Shown: positions 1 to 60,657 of the stretch, piece by piece
How the letters are laid out: every line of letters begins with the position of its first letter
Numbering within the stretch: position 1 is the first letter of the stretch
Assembly (NCBI RefSeq): GCF_027942295.1
Contig: NZ_CP101416.1
Location: forward strand, 1,426,001-1,490,000
Source: Pseudanabaena sp. Chao 1811
GTDB lineage: Bacteria; Cyanobacteriota; Cyanobacteriia; Pseudanabaenales; Pseudanabaenaceae
DNA length: 64,000 nucleotides
Direction of reading: 5' to 3'
The notes under the pieces: generated by a model
Seen by the model: the letters and a program-made list of their open reading frames with translations, nothing else
The model's database searches: none
Told to the model about the DNA's origin: nothing
Made by a program: the position numbers and the translations under genes

Positions 1-1792
1 CGTTAGAAGTAATCGTGAGTACCGATTGCGTAGGTACGGCATGGCGATAGGCAGGATGTTTGCGGATCTCATTCATGAACCTTGCCACGAGGTCAACAGC
101 GATATTATCGACGCGATCATCGTTATTGCCATACTTGGGATATTCGCCGACCGTTTCGTAATCTACCGCCAAGCCTTGCTCGTTGCGAATTACCTTCACC
201 TTGGCATATTTAATCGCCGAGAGCGAGTCGGTGACGACCGATAGACCAGCAATACCACAAGCCATCGTTCGATAGACATCGCGATCGTGCAGTGCCATTT
301 CGATGCGCTCGTAGCAATACTTGTCATGCATATAGTGAATGACATTCAGCGTATTGATGTATGCCTTCGCCAACCATGCCATCATTTGTTGCAAGCGATC
401 ATTGACTTCTTGATAGTCAAGATATGCACTGGTAATTGGTGCGAAGTTGGGCGCAACTTGCTCCCCAGACTTCTCATCCTTACCACCATTGATCGCATAG
501 AGTAGCGTCTTGGCAAGATTGACCCTCGCACCGAAGAACTGCATCTGCTTACCAATTCGCATGACTGACACACAACAGGCGATCGCATAGTCATCGCCAT
601 AGGTTGGACGCATCAGGTCATCATTTTCGTACTGAATGGAACTGGTATCGCTGGATACCTTCGCGCAGAACTGTTTGAAGTTTTCGGGTAAATGTTCTGA
701 CCATAAAACCGTCAAGTTAGGCTCTGGAGCTGCGCCCAGATTGACCAACGTATGCAGGAATCGGAAACTATTCTTGGTAACTAAAGTCCGACCATCGGCA
801 CTCATACCGCCGATCGCTTCTGTCACCCATGTGGGATCACCTGAGAATAGATCATTGTAGTCAGGGGTACGCAAGAAGCGTACCATGCGTAACTTCATTA
901 CGAAATGATCGATTAATTCTTGCAATTCTGTTTCCGCGATCGCGCCATTCTGCAAATCACGCTCGAAATATATGTCTAAAAACGTCGAAACCCGACCGAG
1001 GGACATCGCAGCCCCATTTTGTTCCTTGACTGCCCCTAGGTAGCCAAAATAGAGCCATTGCACCGCTTCTTTGGCGGTCATAGCAGGACGACCAATATCA
1101 AAGCCGTACTTCGCTGCCATTTCCTTGAGTTCAAACAATGCGCGAATTTGTTCCGATAGTTCTTCCCTTAGACGAATGGTTTCTTCGTCCATGACATCGA
1201 CATCAAGGGATTCCTTTTGGGTCTTCTTGTCATCGATGAGGCGATCGACACCATAGAGCGCTACCCGACGATAATCGCCAATAATCCTTCCCCGTCCATA
1301 GGCATCGGGCAAGCCTGTAATGATCCCCGATTTCCTTGCCTTCCGCATTTCCGTGGTATAGGCATCAAATACGCCATCATTATGGGTTTTGCGATATTTA
1401 GTAAAGACTTCTTCTGTGGCAGGATCAAGTTGATAACCATAGGCTTCCAGTCCCGCTTTCACCACACGGATACCGCCATAGGGCATGATGGCGCGTTTGA
1501 GGGGCTTATCTGTCTGTAAGCCGACAATTTGTTCTAGTTCACGATTAATATATCCTGCATCATGGGCAGTGATCCCAGCAGGAACCTTCGTATCAACATC
1601 CAAAATCCCCTTTTGGCGTTCTAGTTTCATCAGTTCTAGCACTTCACTCCAAAGCTGCTGGGTTCTAGTAGTTGGTGCAACCAGAAACTCAGCAGTTCCT
1701 TCGTAAGGTGTGTAATTCTTTTGGATAAAATCTCTAACGTTAATCTCTTTTGTCCAACTGCCTTCCGTAAAGCCCTGCCATTCTACATACAT
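1..1792 (-). CDS. pflB: Pyruvate formate-lyase, partial (3' end beyond left edge)
   Basis: Formate C-acetyltransferase converts pyruvate and CoA to acetyl-CoA and formate in anaerobic fermentation. About 597 codons are present, of about 760 in E. coli PflB. The adjacent catalytic cysteines are visible as C406-C407 in the context [21 protein letters not shown], matching C418-C419 of E. coli. The glycine-radical loop near the C-terminus lies beyond the window. The ATG at 1792 ([11 protein letters not shown]) is chosen because a GGAGGT ribosome site sits about 7 bases upstream. The frame is open to the left edge. The activating enzyme PflA is not in view. PFL is patchily distributed in cyanobacteria, so this gene supports a fermentative lifestyle, together with the hydrogenase genes further right. 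Confidence 0.96.
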
Positions 1793-1815
1793 TGCTTTAA
1801 CCTCCAATGTTGTGT

Positions 1816-1845
1816 CTGAAAGATAAGAGTGTCTTTATCTTTCAG
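1816..1845 (-). promoter_or_regulatory. Perfect inverted repeat in the pflB leader
   Basis: Two perfect 11-base arms, CTGAAAGATAA (1816-1826) and TTATCTTTCAG (1835-1845), flank an 8-base spacer. The repeat lies about 10 bases upstream of the pflB ribosome binding site. It has no GC-rich stem or T-run, so it is not a terminator. It could be a regulator operator or an mRNA leader hairpin; the sequence alone does not say which. Confidence 0.6.
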
Positions 1846-2138
1846 TTCTATTATAGGTTTATCCATTAATCCCTCAAGAAAATAGCAGTAATCTTATTAC
1901 AAAAGTTAACTCGCAAAATCTAATCCAATCAGGGGATGCAGACTCGAAAAAGCCGATTTTACGTGAGCCGTCGGCTATGCGGGCGGCTCACGCTTCTAGT
2001 TTTAGCTAATTGTCTCTTCTACGGAAGGAAGTGATTATTGACAATAGAAAGATAGTATTGCGAAGTGAATCTCTTATTGAGAATAATCAACAGACCACCA
2101 ATGTACCGTCTGCGTAGTGTGCGACACATTAGCTTTTG
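1846..2138. other. Intergenic region upstream of pflB with a GC-rich hairpin
   Basis: No gene is supported here. The region holds a hairpin with arms GTGAGCCG (1963-1970) and CGGCTCAC (1984-1991) and an internal repeated CGGCT, one of the GC-rich intergenic hairpins of this genome. The rest is AT-rich and would hold the pflB promoter, for which no convincing -35/-10 pair can be assigned by eye. Confidence 0.5.
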
Positions 2139-2678
2139 TTACCATTGACAAAGTTGGGATGGGGAAGTCATTAAAGGTTGTGAATATCGATAGAATCCTG
2201 CAATGTCTAATGTAGCTTGTTGGAATAAAATCCATTCATTGCGATCGCCTCTATCATTGCCCTTAGAACTACGAATAATTTTGTAATGATTGAGGTCTAA
2301 ATGACCTTCTTCATCCCATTTAAATTCAGTTTTAGGAATATTAGTCCATTCTCTACCAGCCCAAGAAACTGCTAGGGCTTCCCCCGCAACTGTATTGCCA
2401 AGCACTTTCCCCCTTAGACAGATCAAGTCATCACTATGCGGATAGCCATAATATCCATCCACGCGATCGCCTATTTTCGTGAAGTTAAAACAGACACCCG
2501 CACCATCGAGCTTTTGAGGTTTGGGCTTACTACAAAATTGATAACTGCCATTACCTAAAGCAGCGATCGCCTGTTGTGGTTGGTTTTGCGAATTAATTGA
2601 GGAACTTACGAACAAGCTTGAGGACATCACTAACAAAGCGATCGCCATATCTTTGAGGAGATTATTGGTACGCAGCAT
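2139..2678 (-). CDS. Secreted hypothetical protein
   Basis: This is a 179-residue protein with an N-terminal signal-like segment (basic MLRTNNLLK, then the hydrophobic run MAIALLVMSSSLFVSSS), so it is probably periplasmic or exported. There is no lipobox cysteine. The mature part is rich in Trp, Tyr and Gly and contains cysteines at three or more positions (YQFCSKP, GVCFNF, LICLRG, QLCQW) that could form disulfides. The start is supported by an AAGGAGGTGA ribosome site 8-9 bases upstream. I do not recognise a named family. It stands alone between pflB and tldD, on the same strand as pflB. Confidence 0.75.
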   Translation of the reverse strand: MLRTNNLLKDMAIALLVMSSSLFVSSSINSQNQPQQAIAALGNGSYQFCSKPKPQKLDGAGVCFNFTKIGDRVDGYYGYPHSDDLICLRGKVLGNTVAGEALAVSWAGREWTNIPKTEFKWDEEGHLDLNHYKIIRSSKGNDRGDRNEWILFQQATLDIAGFYRYSQPLMTSPSQLCQW

Positions 2679-2958
2679 AATTGCATCACCTCCTTAACTT
2701 CTATTTTAGTCGTTTTCCCCACCCAAATGTTCCCTAAATATAGACAGAATCTAGTTTTCCAGTTTTGAAATAGCGATCAGCAGAAAGTTTGGCTGCAACT
2801 TTCTTGTGTTTACTGTGAGGACACAATCAATAGAAATATATATTTGATTTTTATAGAAATATAGCTATGAATTTATGCTCCCAGTACACAAAAACGATAT
2901 TTTTGTGTCATAATCGCAGATGAGATACATTCCCCACCTGTTCTTGTGAGCTTTGGAT

Positions 2959-4347
2959 ATGGATATATGGCAAGTTAAGGATCAACTTTCAGACTTAGTA
3001 CACAAGTACAAATCTCAAGTAGATTTTTTTGCGATTCGCTTAGAGCGATCGCAGGGTGCGGATATCTTTTTACGCAGTGGTAAAGTCGAAACCCTGAGTA
3101 CAGGTATTTCCATCGGCGGACAGGTAAGGGCTTGTCACAAAGGCGGCTGGGGATTTGCAAGTTTTAATGACCTTGGCAATTTAGAGCATAAACTTCAAGA
3201 AGCACTCACTGCGGCAAAGTGGGTAGGCAACGAGGAAACAGTACTGGCTGAAGTTGTCCCCGTACAGGCGCAAGTATCACTAATTAAAGACAATCCTAAT
3301 CGCATCGATCTGATGGCGAAGAAGAATTTATGTAGTTACTACACCGATATTTTGCGATCGGTTTCTGACCGAGTAGTAAGTACAGCCGTTCGCTACGGAG
3401 ACTGTACGCAGCAAGTCATATTTGCCAATTCCGAAGGCACAATGATCGAGCAAGAATGGGCGGACTGGGAAATGCGCTGCTCAGCAACTGCAAGAAATGG
3501 AGAGATCGTTCAAACAGGTCGAGAAACTTTTGGCTCAAGGCGAGCCTATACAGACTTGTTAAACCTCGATCATCAGGTAATTGGGGCGGCACAACGCGCA
3601 GTTACAGCTCTAGATTTACCTAATGTGCAAGGCAATAGTTATACCGTTGTAATTGATCCAATTCTGGCAGGATTATTTGTCCATGAAGCCTTTGGACATC
3701 TATCAGAAGCAGATATGCTCTATGAAAATCCCGACATGCTAGAAACGATGAGCATTGGACGCAGGTTTGGCTCTGAGGATCTCCAAATTTTTGATGGTGC
3801 TGCACCCGTAGAGCATCGTGGCAGTTATCTCTATGACGATGAAGGTGTACCTGCAACTACAACCCAATTAATTAAAGATGGGGTATTAGTAGGTAGACTA
3901 CATTCTCGCGAAACCGCAGGCAAACTCGGTGAACAAGTGACAGGCAATGCCCGATGCTTAGATTATCATTATCCTCCAATCGTTCGCATGACGAATACTT
4001 GGATTGGTCGCGGTCAAACCCCTATAGCTGATTTATTCCATGATATTCCCGTTGGCGTATATGCCAAGAACTGGCAAGGGGGCATGACCAATGGCGAGAT
4101 GTTTACTTTTACGGCTGGCGAAGCTTGGATGATTCGTGATGGCAAAATTGCCGAACCAGTCAGAGATGTTACCCTTTCAGGGAATGTATTTGAGACCTTA
4201 GCGGATATTGAAGCGATCGGCGATGACTTTTTGTGGGATGAGTCGGGCGGTTGTGGCAAAGGCGGACAGAGTGGGCTTGCCGTTGGTTGCGGGTCTCCTA
4301 GCTTGAGAATTAGAAATGCGATCGTCGGAGGTGAATCCAATGTCTAG
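2959..4347 (+). CDS. tldD: TldD-type metalloprotease
   Basis: TldD/PmbA-family metalloprotease. In bacteria TldD and TldE form a complex that degrades unfolded peptides and matures some modified peptides. The zinc-binding HExxxH motif appears as HEAFGH at about residues 244-249 (counting from an alternative TTG start two codons upstream). It is followed by typical family blocks (DEGVPATTT, GRLHSRETA, GGMTNGEMFTF, GKGGQSGLAVGCGSPSLRI). Length is about 462 residues, as expected. The ATG at 2959 is preferred to the TTG at 2953, although no strong ribosome site is visible. The last bases overlap the histidine kinase start, so the two are probably co-transcribed. A partner pmbA is not in the window. 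Confidence 0.93.
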   Translation: MDIWQVKDQLSDLVHKYKSQVDFFAIRLERSQGADIFLRSGKVETLSTGISIGGQVRACHKGGWGFASFNDLGNLEHKLQEALTAAKWVGNEETVLAEVVPVQAQVSLIKDNPNRIDLMAKKNLCSYYTDILRSVSDRVVSTAVRYGDCTQQVIFANSEGTMIEQEWADWEMRCSATARNGEIVQTGRETFGSRRAYTDLLNLDHQVIGAAQRAVTALDLPNVQGNSYTVVIDPILAGLFVHEAFGHLSEADMLYENPDMLETMSIGRRFGSEDLQIFDGAAPVEHRGSYLYDDEGVPATTTQLIKDGVLVGRLHSRETAGKLGEQVTGNARCLDYHYPPIVRMTNTWIGRGQTPIADLFHDIPVGVYAKNWQGGMTNGEMFTFTAGEAWMIRDGKIAEPVRDVTLSGNVFETLADIEAIGDDFLWDESGGCGKGGQSGLAVGCGSPSLRIRNAIVGGESNV

Positions 4348-50611: not shown

Positions 50612-50821
50612 ATGGCTAACAGTTACAGAGTTGATGAACGCGGTGTACTCAACAACTTCGCAATTGAACCAAAGATGTATGTTGATGATACCGAGAAAGC
50701 TGGTTTTACACCTTATGCGGAATTACTAAACGGTAGACTTGCCATGATTGGTTTCGTCTCTCTCTTAATTACAGAAGCTGCAACGGGGCATGGGCTGATT
50801 TGGTTGCTGGGGAATCTATAA
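50612..50821 (+). CDS. hli: High-light-inducible protein, copy 1
   Basis: A 69-residue single-helix chlorophyll-binding protein with the [12 protein letters not shown] motif. It protects photosystem assembly under light stress. It is almost identical to the next gene (only residue 2 differs), a recent tandem duplication. A long AT-rich leader precedes it. Confidence 0.93.
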
Positions 50822-50888: not shown

Positions 50889-51098
50889 ATGACTAATAGC
50901 TACAGAGTCGATGAACGCGGTGTACTCAACAACTTCGCAATTGAACCAAAGATGTATGTTGACGATACTGAGAAAGCTGGTTTTACACCTTATGCGGAAT
51001 TACTAAACGGTAGACTTGCCATGATTGGTTTCGTCTCTCTCCTAATTACAGAAGCTGCAACGGGGCATGGACTGATTTGGTTGTTGGGAAATCTATAA
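50889..51098 (+). CDS. hli: High-light-inducible protein, copy 2
   Basis: The tandem copy of the preceding gene, [21 protein letters not shown]..., with the same 69 residues apart from position 2. An AGAGG-type ribosome site precedes each copy. Gene conversion or a very recent duplication is likely. A terminator follows. Confidence 0.93.
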
Positions 51099-53546: not shown

Positions 53547-53996
53547 CTATTTAGTTTGGGTTTCTAGGCAAGGTTGAAATTCTTCCCAACGACGACTGAC
53601 TTGAACATAACAGTCAGGAGGAAAAATCTTGAGATTTTGAAACAGATTAATTTCGAGATGTTCTTCCATTTTCATCAGCAGAACAATCTCGCGATCGGGG
53701 ACATAGTTTCCTACTGCTTGCACAAGTACAGAGATTAAATCTTGATCGAGGGAAAAGGCTTGAATCGAGGTAATTAATTCCTGCTCAGCAATGAATTGAG
53801 ATTTGAATTGTGTTACTTCTAAACTTGCATTACTAGGGGCGATCGCTTGACGATCAATATCACAGACCACAACGCCGCGACCATATTCTAAAAAGCCTTG
53901 CCATGCCGTATAGCCAATCATCATGAGATGGTTGTGAATAAAGCTTTTTTGCCAATAGCCAAAATTTCCTTGCCAGTCGCTATCCTTAAGCTTCAT
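53547..53996 (-). CDS. Hypothetical protein downstream of a cobalamin riboswitch
   Basis: A 149-residue protein, MKLKDSDWQGNFGYWQKSFIHNHLMMIGYTAWQGFLEYGRGVVVCDIDRQ..., rich in aromatics near the N-terminus. I do not recognise the family. The ATG at 53996 has GGAGG 7 bases upstream; the longer TTG start at 54002 is rejected. It is the first gene after the riboswitch at 54112-54262, so it is expected to be shut off by B12. A link to corrinoid metabolism, or a B12-independent substitute, is inference. Confidence 0.7.
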   Translation of the reverse strand: MKLKDSDWQGNFGYWQKSFIHNHLMMIGYTAWQGFLEYGRGVVVCDIDRQAIAPSNASLEVTQFKSQFIAEQELITSIQAFSLDQDLISVLVQAVGNYVPDREIVLLMKMEEHLEINLFQNLKIFPPDCYVQVSRRWEEFQPCLETQTK

Positions 53997-54111
53997 TGCC
54001 AATCCTCCATGACTGCAAATTCAATTGACAAGGAAGAATGGAAGTTTTTTTCCATTCGCAAAAATATGAACTCATCATCTATGACCTCGTAGATGTAGAT
54101 TTATGTGTAGT

Positions 54112-54262
54112 TGCGATTCGGCGGGCATTCTGACTTATTTAGCTACCGCAAAATTTACATTGCTATAGCTAAAAATTACAGTTGCGGGACAGCGTTGGAC
54201 TTGCACCAAACTTTCCCCATTACTTTTAGTGACTGATCTTCACTAAAACCGAAATCTGAGTT
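54112..54262 (-). promoter_or_regulatory. Cobalamin riboswitch
   Basis: Read on the minus strand, the region contains GGGGAAAGTTTGGTGCAAGTCC, the B12-box-like GCTGTCCCGCAACTG and, after a stem, AGTCAGAATGCCCGCC. These are the conserved core elements of the cobalamin riboswitch, in order. On the plus strand they fall at 54197-54217, 54177-54192 and about 54120-54137. Ends are approximate. A possible expression-platform hairpin, GAATGGAA/TTCCATTC, lies at about 54039-54061. The next minus-strand gene begins at 53996. Confidence 0.88.
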
Positions 54263-54308
54263 TTGATCATAGCACTAATGGCAGAGGCGGCATTTTGCGC
54301 TGACGATG

Positions 54309-57951: not shown

Positions 57952-58815
57952 GAGAGTGTAAAGTGAAGTGTGTAAAGTCTGGGATATATACAGAGAGATG
58001 ATCTAGACACACAATTACCAACACTAAAACTGATGAATATACGCAAAGAATTGCTCGACGAATTGCTGCAAGAATGTAAAACACCACCTGACCTATTCGG
58101 AGAAGGAGGAATCCTGAAGCAACTGACGACCGCATTAGTGGAACGAGCATTGGAAGCAGAACTATCCATGCATCTGGGCTACGGAAAACATGAACCAAGA
58201 CCAGAAGGACAAACTAACAGTCGCAACGGTTATAGTCAGAAAAAAGTCCAAGGGGACTTTGGCGTAGCAGAAATTGCAGTACCGCGAGATCGCAGTGGTG
58301 AGTTTGAACCACATCTGGTGAAGAAAGGACAAAGCCGCTTGTCAGGACTAGACGAGAAGATTATTGCCCTATATGCCAGAGGGATGAGTGTCAGGGATAT
58401 CCAGTCCCAAAGGCTATTTATAGCTCTGCAACAGAGTCGGAGGCGGAGTTTAACCTTGCGTTGTTTGCTGAAAAGTGGGACAAGCAATATCCATCAATCT
58501 CCAAGTCTTGGCTTAGTCATTGGGCGAACATTATCCCCTTCTTTACTTTCCCCCCTGAGATTCGTAGGGCGATTTATACCACCAAGGCACTTGAATCGAT
58601 GAATAGTAGCTTGCGGAAGGTGATTAAATCTCAACAGCTTTTTCCGACCGATGAAGCGGCTTTCAATCTGGTTTATCTTGCCATGCGGAATATCTCGAAG
58701 AAGTGGACGATGCCGATTCGCGATTGGAAGCCTGCACTTAATCGCTTTGCCATCCTCTTTGAGGATCGTCTCCATATCTAGCTTCTAGACTTTACACATT
58801 TTACTTGACAGTCTC
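57952..58815 (+). pseudogene. IS256-family element with an internal deletion
   Basis: A transposase start (58033: [20 protein letters not shown]..., [11 protein letters not shown]) is joined directly to a late segment ([24 protein letters not shown], in another frame, 58461-58781). The central DDE region is lost. The junction near 58407 shows a short CAA-type microhomology. The left end (GTGTAAAGTGAAGTGTGTAAAG, 57952 on) and the right end (CTTTACACATTTTACTTGACAGTCTC) are both present. The flanks do not match as an 8-bp duplication. Confidence 0.8.
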
Positions 58816-59162: not shown

Positions 59163-60007
59163 CTGAGAACTTGCACCATTCTGGAAAGGGGTTGCAAAGA
59201 GAGTAAAGATGTGAAAAAAAGGGCGTAGTAGTAAATTAAATAACGATTATGGAAAGCATCGTTAAGCACGCCCAAGGTTTAGTGTATAGCCTAATTTGTC
59301 TGATGCCAAGTGTGTATCAAAAAGCAAGTCTGAATGCAATATTAGGGCTATTTCTGGAAGCGCAAGGGCATCCCTATCCAGAACATACACAGGTAAAATC
59401 AGCGAGTGCATTAAGCCGATTTCTCAATCACTATAACTGGTCAACAAGAGGACTAATTCGAGCAACAAGGCTGTCAATTTTGGGGCAAATCGCCAAGCAT
59501 CGCCCATCGAAGAGAGTGCCATTAAAGATACTGATAGACCTGACCACCTTAGAAAAAAGCGGCAAGTTTTTACATTTGAGCAATCCCACCCCAAACGAAC
59601 CAGACCCATGGGTGAGAATCCTCAACGGAAAGCGAGGACTACATCTGGTTGTACTGTATCTGGTCTATGGAGAGTGGCGCGTACCATGGAGTTTTAGAGT
59701 ATGGCGCGGCAAAGGATACTCCAGTCCCTCTGACTTAGCTTGTAAGTTATTGGGGACAGTACCCAAGCAACTAACCCAAGGCAAGACTGTGATTGTCCTT
59801 GCTGATACTGAGTTTAGTACGGTGAAGTTTTTCAATGCTGTCCGCGCCAAGTCTTGGCGCATCGTTGTCGGTGTCCGCAACAATCGTAAACTTCAAGATG
59901 GACGTACCGTCAAACAACTTTATCCCCATGGCAAACGTGGACAACTAATTTTACTGGAAGGGCTAAGTACGCCTTTGACGATCTCTTGGTTCTGGCTCAA
60001 AAGAGCC
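59163..60007 (+). mobile_element. Truncated copy of the IS4-superfamily element
   Basis: Begins with the same end, CTGAGAACTTGCACCATTC, and carries the first 253 residues of the transposase (59249 on), identical in protein to the copy at 17872-19014. It breaks off at 60007 after LKRA and runs straight into IS256-like sequence. The right end is missing. Confidence 0.92.
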
Positions 60008-60657
60008 ATTACTGGGTATGTGGATTTCTCCGAATGAAGGTGCGAAATTCTGGTTGTCAGTACTCACCGAAATTCACAACCGTGGGGTCAAAGATATTTT
60101 GATTGCCTGTGTCGATGGCTTGACTGGTTTCCCTAATGCGATTGAGACGGTATTTCCTAAAACTCAGGTGCAGTTATGCATTGTCCACATGGTCAGAAAC
60201 TCGGTCGCTTTTGTACCTTGGCAACAACGCAAGCAAGTTTGTGCTGACCTCAAGGCTATTTATAGCGCGGCGACGGAATCGGAGGCTGAGTTTAATCTCG
60301 AACTCTTTGCTGAAAAGTGGGACAAGCAATATCCATCAATCTCCAAGTCTTGGCGCAGTCATTGGGCAAACATTATCCCCTTCTTTGCTTTCCCGACCGA
60401 GATTCGCAGGGCGATTTATACCACCAATGCGATTGAGTCGATGAACAGTAGTTTGCGGAAGGTGATTAAATCCCAACAGATTTTTCCCTCTGATGATGCT
60501 GCTTTCAAGCTCGTTTATTTAGCAATGCGGAATATCTCGAAGAAGTGGACGATGCCGATTCGTGATTGGAAACCTGCTCTTAATCGCTTTGCCATCCTCT
60601 TCGAGGATCGTCTCCACGTCTAGCTTCTAGACTTTACACATTTTACTTGACAGTCTC
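60008..60657 (+). mobile_element. IS256-family transposase, C-terminal part
   Basis: The frame 60018-60623 covers residues like MWISPNEGAKFWLSVLTEIHNRGVKDILIACVDGLTGFPNAIETVFPKTQVQLCIVHMVRNS to the conserved C-terminus [13 protein letters not shown]. The central D of the DDE set is in ACVDGLTGFP and the last E in NAIESMN. The right end matches that of the remnant at 58815. The N-terminal third is replaced by the IS4-type copy. Its right end touches the last codon of the NACHT-HEAT gene. Confidence 0.85.

Follow-up and report, generated by a model that had tools for sequence, protein, structure and literature searches.

The window, i.e., the entire 64-kb stretch of Pseudanabaena DNA that was analysed, contains on its minus strand a cobalamin riboswitch aptamer followed by two genes, which encode a 149-residue protein (hereinafter alpha) and a class I SAM-dependent methyltransferase (MT; Table 1). 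A cmscan search identifies a match to RF00174 (Cobalamin) that covers the full length of the model (positions 1-189) with a score of 56.4 bits (E-value of 2.5e-11) and is the sole Rfam match across the window. The score exceeds the gathering value of 31.5 bits, and the element adds a new member to the established class of cobalamin riboswitches. The sequence-only reading had placed a B12 riboswitch on this strand at 53996-54112; the riboswitch itself stands, but its location has to be corrected, as the interval given spans the start codon, the leader and only the last ~10 nucleotides of the aptamer.

The same reading had announced a 149-residue product of an unfamiliar gene and, after it, a SAM methyltransferase, and both are borne out. 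The stop codon of the alpha gene occupies positions 53547-53549, and the MT frame begins about 70 bp beyond alpha. Pfam and NCBIfam scans of alpha yield no family match, a weak NCBIfam hit to folD (E-value of 0.03) having been dismissed as chance, and Pfam scans of 75 relatives are blank except for a MetE remnant that is fused to one member. The MT scores 29.9 bits against Pfam Methyltransf_23 (PF13489, cut-off 27), its best PDB match is an O-methyltransferase, and it lies outside the precorrin methyltransferase families. Elsewhere in the window, inspection by eye reveals, on the plus strand, two tandem, near-identical 69-residue frames that resemble high-light-inducible proteins (50612-50821 and 50889-51098) as well as frames resembling one broken and a second transposase (58033-58781 and 59249-60037).

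Table 1. Features of the riboswitch-alpha-MT locus (coordinates of the window)
Feature	Coordinates	Strand	Basis
Cobalamin riboswitch aptamer (RF00174)	54103..54268	-	cmscan match to the full-length model; conservation
Hairpin CAUCUA-CGAGGUCA-UAGAUG, a putative expression platform; the loop contains a Shine-Dalgarno-like GAGGU	54076..54095	-	alignment of 13 leaders
Possible leader ORF of 30 codons that starts at the AUG nearest the riboswitch and overlaps the alpha start	53986..54078	-	translation
Alpha, 149-residue protein with a predicted CcmS fold, outside Pfam and NCBIfam families	53550..53996	-	ORF; predicted fold; profile match
Second gene: MT, a class I SAM-dependent methyltransferase of 282 residues	52630..53478	-	Pfam Methyltransf_23

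The aptamer is located in the 5' leader of the alpha gene, in the sense orientation, and is kept with this gene at homologous loci, including all 13 family-bearing Pseudanabaena genomes examined. In the alignment of these 13 congeneric leaders, the hairpin that follows the aptamer is near-invariant; its stem is predicted, but its stability is no greater than that of shuffled sequence. The gene starts 28 nucleotides past the aptamer in 10 of the 13 leaders, with the AUG located on the 3' arm of the hairpin. This arrangement leaves little room for a terminator and indicates translational control, so that, given also the Shine-Dalgarno-like motif in the loop, the switch most likely acts at translation initiation in this genus. 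A search by eye for a sequence that could pair with the Shine-Dalgarno loop in a kissing interaction found none. In the window and in two relatives, an insertion separates the original start site from the alpha gene. The short frame that runs from the old AUG is open in the two relatives as well and ends over the same start codon; this is a suggestive but weak sign of translational coupling, considering that open frames of 30 codons frequently arise by chance.

A profile of 15 members detects the family in 95 of 291 cyanobacterial genomes, representing 47 of 130 genera, although in at least 6 of these genomes all matches are weak and remote. Two members, alpha and beta, are often encoded in tandem, and beta is strongly conserved; the named records that contain the closest relatives are mostly from Pseudanabaena. 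An Rfam scan, supplemented at some loci with positions from a genome-wide riboswitch search, shows that 73 of the 83 fetched loci (counted as strand-wise clusters) have a cobalamin riboswitch upstream of the family gene and in the same orientation, at a distance that varies from 28 bp to 2.9 kb and is longer where metE (~2.25 kb) intervenes. The 10 loci lacking an upstream riboswitch include four remote homologues (L091, L129, L131 and L132), loci near contig ends (L080, L097, L110 and L116) and two that fit neither group (L043 and L121). By chance, about 0.0007 (about 0.07%) would be expected per locus, on the assumption of ~2.3 riboswitches per 5-Mb genome, a value taken from the genome-wide riboswitch search; the 83 loci are mutually related and do not amount to 83 independent trials. 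The riboswitch likewise precedes the family gene, in the same orientation, at all 20 further loci that were obtained by a different retrieval route (from Microcoleus, Tychonema, Nostoc, Lyngbya and others). A homologue of the window MT follows alpha in 30 of the 35 loci of the second retrieval, and the MTs at this position in Microcoleus, Tychonema, Nostoc and Gloeocapsopsis are 50-58% identical to it. Therefore, the riboswitch-alpha-MT unit is conserved well beyond Pseudanabaena, across cyanobacterial orders. The co-occurrence of the homologues with the riboswitch and the strong covariance match thus lend good support to the early suggestion that the locus might point to a new B12-linked function. 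Most genomes with cobalamin riboswitches do not contain the family. In Pseudanabaena genomes, there is also a remote relative of the family, present in multiple copies (L131:4761-5264 and L132:4487-5029) and found beside genes that by eye resemble MoxR-type AAA ATPases; neither of these two loci has a cobalamin riboswitch.

The operon partners of the family were counted along the same-strand run in 71 loci, with numbers that are contingent on the simple ORF caller employed. The most common partners are desaturases of two groups (23 loci, 10 + 13), methyltransferases (21), metE (19) and DUF1636 (17), followed by cobW (7), CFA synthase (6), hupE (2), a gene pair whose first member contains a ribonucleotide reductase (RNR) domain (2) and cbiMNQ (1, the cbi genes being recognised by sequence and not by a family search). 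One locus (L148) shows the order riboswitch-cobW-DUF1636-alpha-MT. In two others (L045:7608-13056 and L075:4797-10368), a single cobalamin riboswitch heads an operon that consists, in this order, of metE, a family gene, the gene for the RNR-domain protein, that for a ferritin-like protein without a Pfam match, and another family gene. MetE is encoded in 34 of the 291 genomes, 21 of which also carry the family, with metE adjoining in most. At L093:4118-4432 and L114:4593-4874, metE is cut down to a remnant of ~100 codons, in which the first ~45 and the last ~55 codons are joined in frame, and at L121:4462-5154 a C-terminal piece of metE is fused to the family gene; the family genes beside the remnants are intact. 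The family gene outlives metE and, therefore, is more than a simple MetE helper. In L116, a beta-type member (299-871) lies immediately behind a metH gene (774-3998), and the two genes overlap.

The longer methyltransferases of other operons, which may be tocopherol/plastoquinone methyltransferases, belong to a different group than the window MT. Homologues of the window MT are also present, in other gene surroundings, in 13 genomes without the family, so that in some genomes this enzyme is independent of alpha. In two lineages (L175:6093-7688 and L184:2273-3925), homologues of the window MT are located near DUF4070 B12-binding radical SAM proteins. The Pseudanabaena genome itself has one other cobalamin riboswitch (C1:252210-252393, plus strand, within L033, C1:248000-260000), which precedes hupE-cobW-cobG-cobH-cobI; this genome encodes MetH, and searches of it detect neither MetE nor NrdJ of the TIGR02504 type.

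AlphaFold2 models of alpha generated with 8 and 76 sequences have confident cores, with a mean pLDDT of 75 and 81, respectively. A Foldseek search against the PDB started with either model identifies only two entries with an E-value below 0.001, both CcmS, with the probability of 1.00. VIA-align superimposes the two models on CcmS over ~115 residues with Z scores of 9.3 and 9.2, the next best score being 4.4; structural matches other than CcmS, at Z of 4.4 and below, were set aside. The best PDB match of the family profile in a HMMER search is Slr1911, the CcmS of Synechocystis, with an E-value of 0.13 that alone is not significant, and an hhalign comparison of the family profile with a profile of three CcmS-like proteins yields a probability of 93.7% (P-value of 2e-7) over 121 columns; the identity between alpha and CcmS is ~16%. 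The chaperone CcmS forms dimers, binds the shell protein CcmK1 at its C-terminal tail and aids shell assembly; in the Nostoc CcmS, residues D51, Q53, F58 and Y60 contact this tail (PMC11635287). The segment that contains these contacts is gapped and poorly aligned between the two profiles. Two cysteines, C45 and C129, are near-invariant in the alpha family, and the cysteine of a PPxC motif that matches C129 is conserved in CcmS-like proteins too. The profile of three CcmS-like proteins detects 37 of the 291 genomes at an E-value of 1e-6, with no match in the genus Pseudanabaena, this genome included, and no carboxysome genes were recognised around the family loci examined. Judging from the models and the profile comparison, alpha is a remote CcmS homologue with a predicted CcmS fold, true CcmS forming a distinct family.

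As a rule, cobalamin riboswitches repress expression once a cobamide is bound. Cobalt starvation of Anabaena leads to ~100-fold up-regulation of the first of the genes that follow a cobalamin riboswitch (PMC10878165). By analogy with other cobalamin riboswitches, bound cobamide would lower expression of the unit, and cobamide scarcity would lead to the production of alpha and the MT, making the alpha family a systematic member of a cobamide-depletion regulon. Going by the fold, alpha most likely resembles CcmS in its mode of action and would thus be an adaptor or chaperone of small size, perhaps a dimer, with affinity for a short stretch of another protein. This partner would be either an enzyme encoded in the operon itself (here, the MT) or one that is needed once B12 runs out. 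To this reading as a whole, namely, a unit of a CcmS-fold adaptor and an MT that is controlled by a cobalamin riboswitch and made when cobamide is scarce, we assign a probability of about 0.45. Its parts differ in strength: the regulation and the fold are well supported, whereas the molecular function, i.e., the adaptor role, is inferred from the predicted fold alone. The case for an adaptor is weakened by the variation of the partners (metE, desaturase, MT, DUF1636 or nothing), which indicates no single client, and by the close MT homologues in alpha-less genomes; furthermore, a common fold is no proof of a common function. A broader version, in which a dedicated family of CcmS-fold adaptors, often in alpha/beta pairs, is induced when cobamide is short and serves to assemble or redirect certain enzymes, namely methyltransferases, desaturases and methionine synthase, such that the cell manages without B12, is a tentative proposal. 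If correct, it would add a chaperone layer to the B12 regulon and imply that CcmS-type chaperones have roles beyond carboxysomes.

A role in cobalt or corrinoid handling is a serious rival, even if rather unlikely: alpha could be a small carrier or accessory protein that, at low B12, cooperates with CobW and DUF1636 to deliver cobalt or salvage cobamides. The recurrence of DUF1636, cobW, hupE and cbiMNQ in the family operons, the gene order at L148 and the near-invariance of C45 and C129 are all compatible with such a role. However, the CcmS fold is known as a binder of peptides, not of metals or corrinoids, C129 need not be a metal ligand given its conserved counterpart in CcmS-like proteins, and many alpha operons include no cobalt gene at all. 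The association with metE, together with the beta gene that directly follows metH, could be taken to mean that methionine synthase (MetE and perhaps MetH) has alpha and beta, its tandem paralogue, as accessory factors, but MetE is missing from most genomes with the family, this one among them, and the family gene persists where metE has decayed (L093, L114 and L121), which makes this explanation improbable. As a general role, that of a MetE accessory was rejected: the family is not confined to genomes with MetE, and remnants of metE precede intact family genes.

Cobamide biosynthesis is the usual target of B12 riboswitches, and the alpha-MT pair might accordingly perform an unrecognised step of cobamide biosynthesis or remodelling. 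We consider this quite improbable: the biosynthetic operon behind the other cobalamin riboswitch of this genome and a homologue of the MT that follows cobL in one genome (G191) would fit, but most of the MT homologues in alpha-less genomes are found among unrelated genes, with no clear B12 box upstream in a crude motif search. The assignment of the MT, outside the precorrin methyltransferases and closest to an O-methyltransferase, and the absence of the family from most genomes with cobalamin riboswitches also argue against it. That the juxtaposition is fortuitous, with a riboswitch that lacks a relevant target here and a hitch-hiking gene, is extremely improbable, being contradicted by the frequency of the association in both sets of loci against the chance expectation and by the conservation of the leader between species.

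The alpha family is most likely a real, uncharacterised part of the cyanobacterial response to B12 shortage. The usual interpretation of B12 regulons involves uptake, synthesis and the exchange of isoenzymes. In this case, a cyanobacterial family that is widespread and has no curated model is linked to the same switch as metE, cobW and cobalt transporters, and its predicted fold is that of a carboxysome-assembly chaperone. How cyanobacteria use alpha-type proteins and methyltransferases under cobamide shortage is now a question that can be addressed in culturable strains. The analysis also adds B12-riboswitch operons containing cobW for cyanobacteria, in contrast to a 2009 survey, in which cyanobacterial cobW was reported not to be regulated by B12 riboswitches (PMC2770081).

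A search of the literature, which did not extend to many subscription journals, found no prior description of the alpha family. The known targets of cobalamin riboswitches in cyanobacteria are B12 synthesis and uptake genes (PMC10878165, PMC4284471). The element described here shares with these riboswitches the full-length covariance match and the sense orientation, but its presumed target gene belongs to no annotated family. B12-independent isoenzymes, such as MetE and ribonucleotide reductase, have the riboswitch and often the operon in common with alpha; alpha, however, is not the isoform of any B12-dependent enzyme known and is retained at loci with a decayed metE. The DUF1636 and CobW cobalt-handling genes are frequent partners of alpha under the same riboswitch but are unrelated to it in sequence. 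The beta-carboxysome shell chaperone CcmS (Slr1911/All1292) is similar to alpha in predicted fold, length and motifs such as PPxC; nevertheless, the two are separate HMM families, and alpha is encoded in riboswitch operons, not in a carboxysome context, and in this genome, where CcmS is not found. Compared with these systems, the novelty resides in the family behind the riboswitch, in its predicted CcmS fold and in its membership in the B12 regulon.
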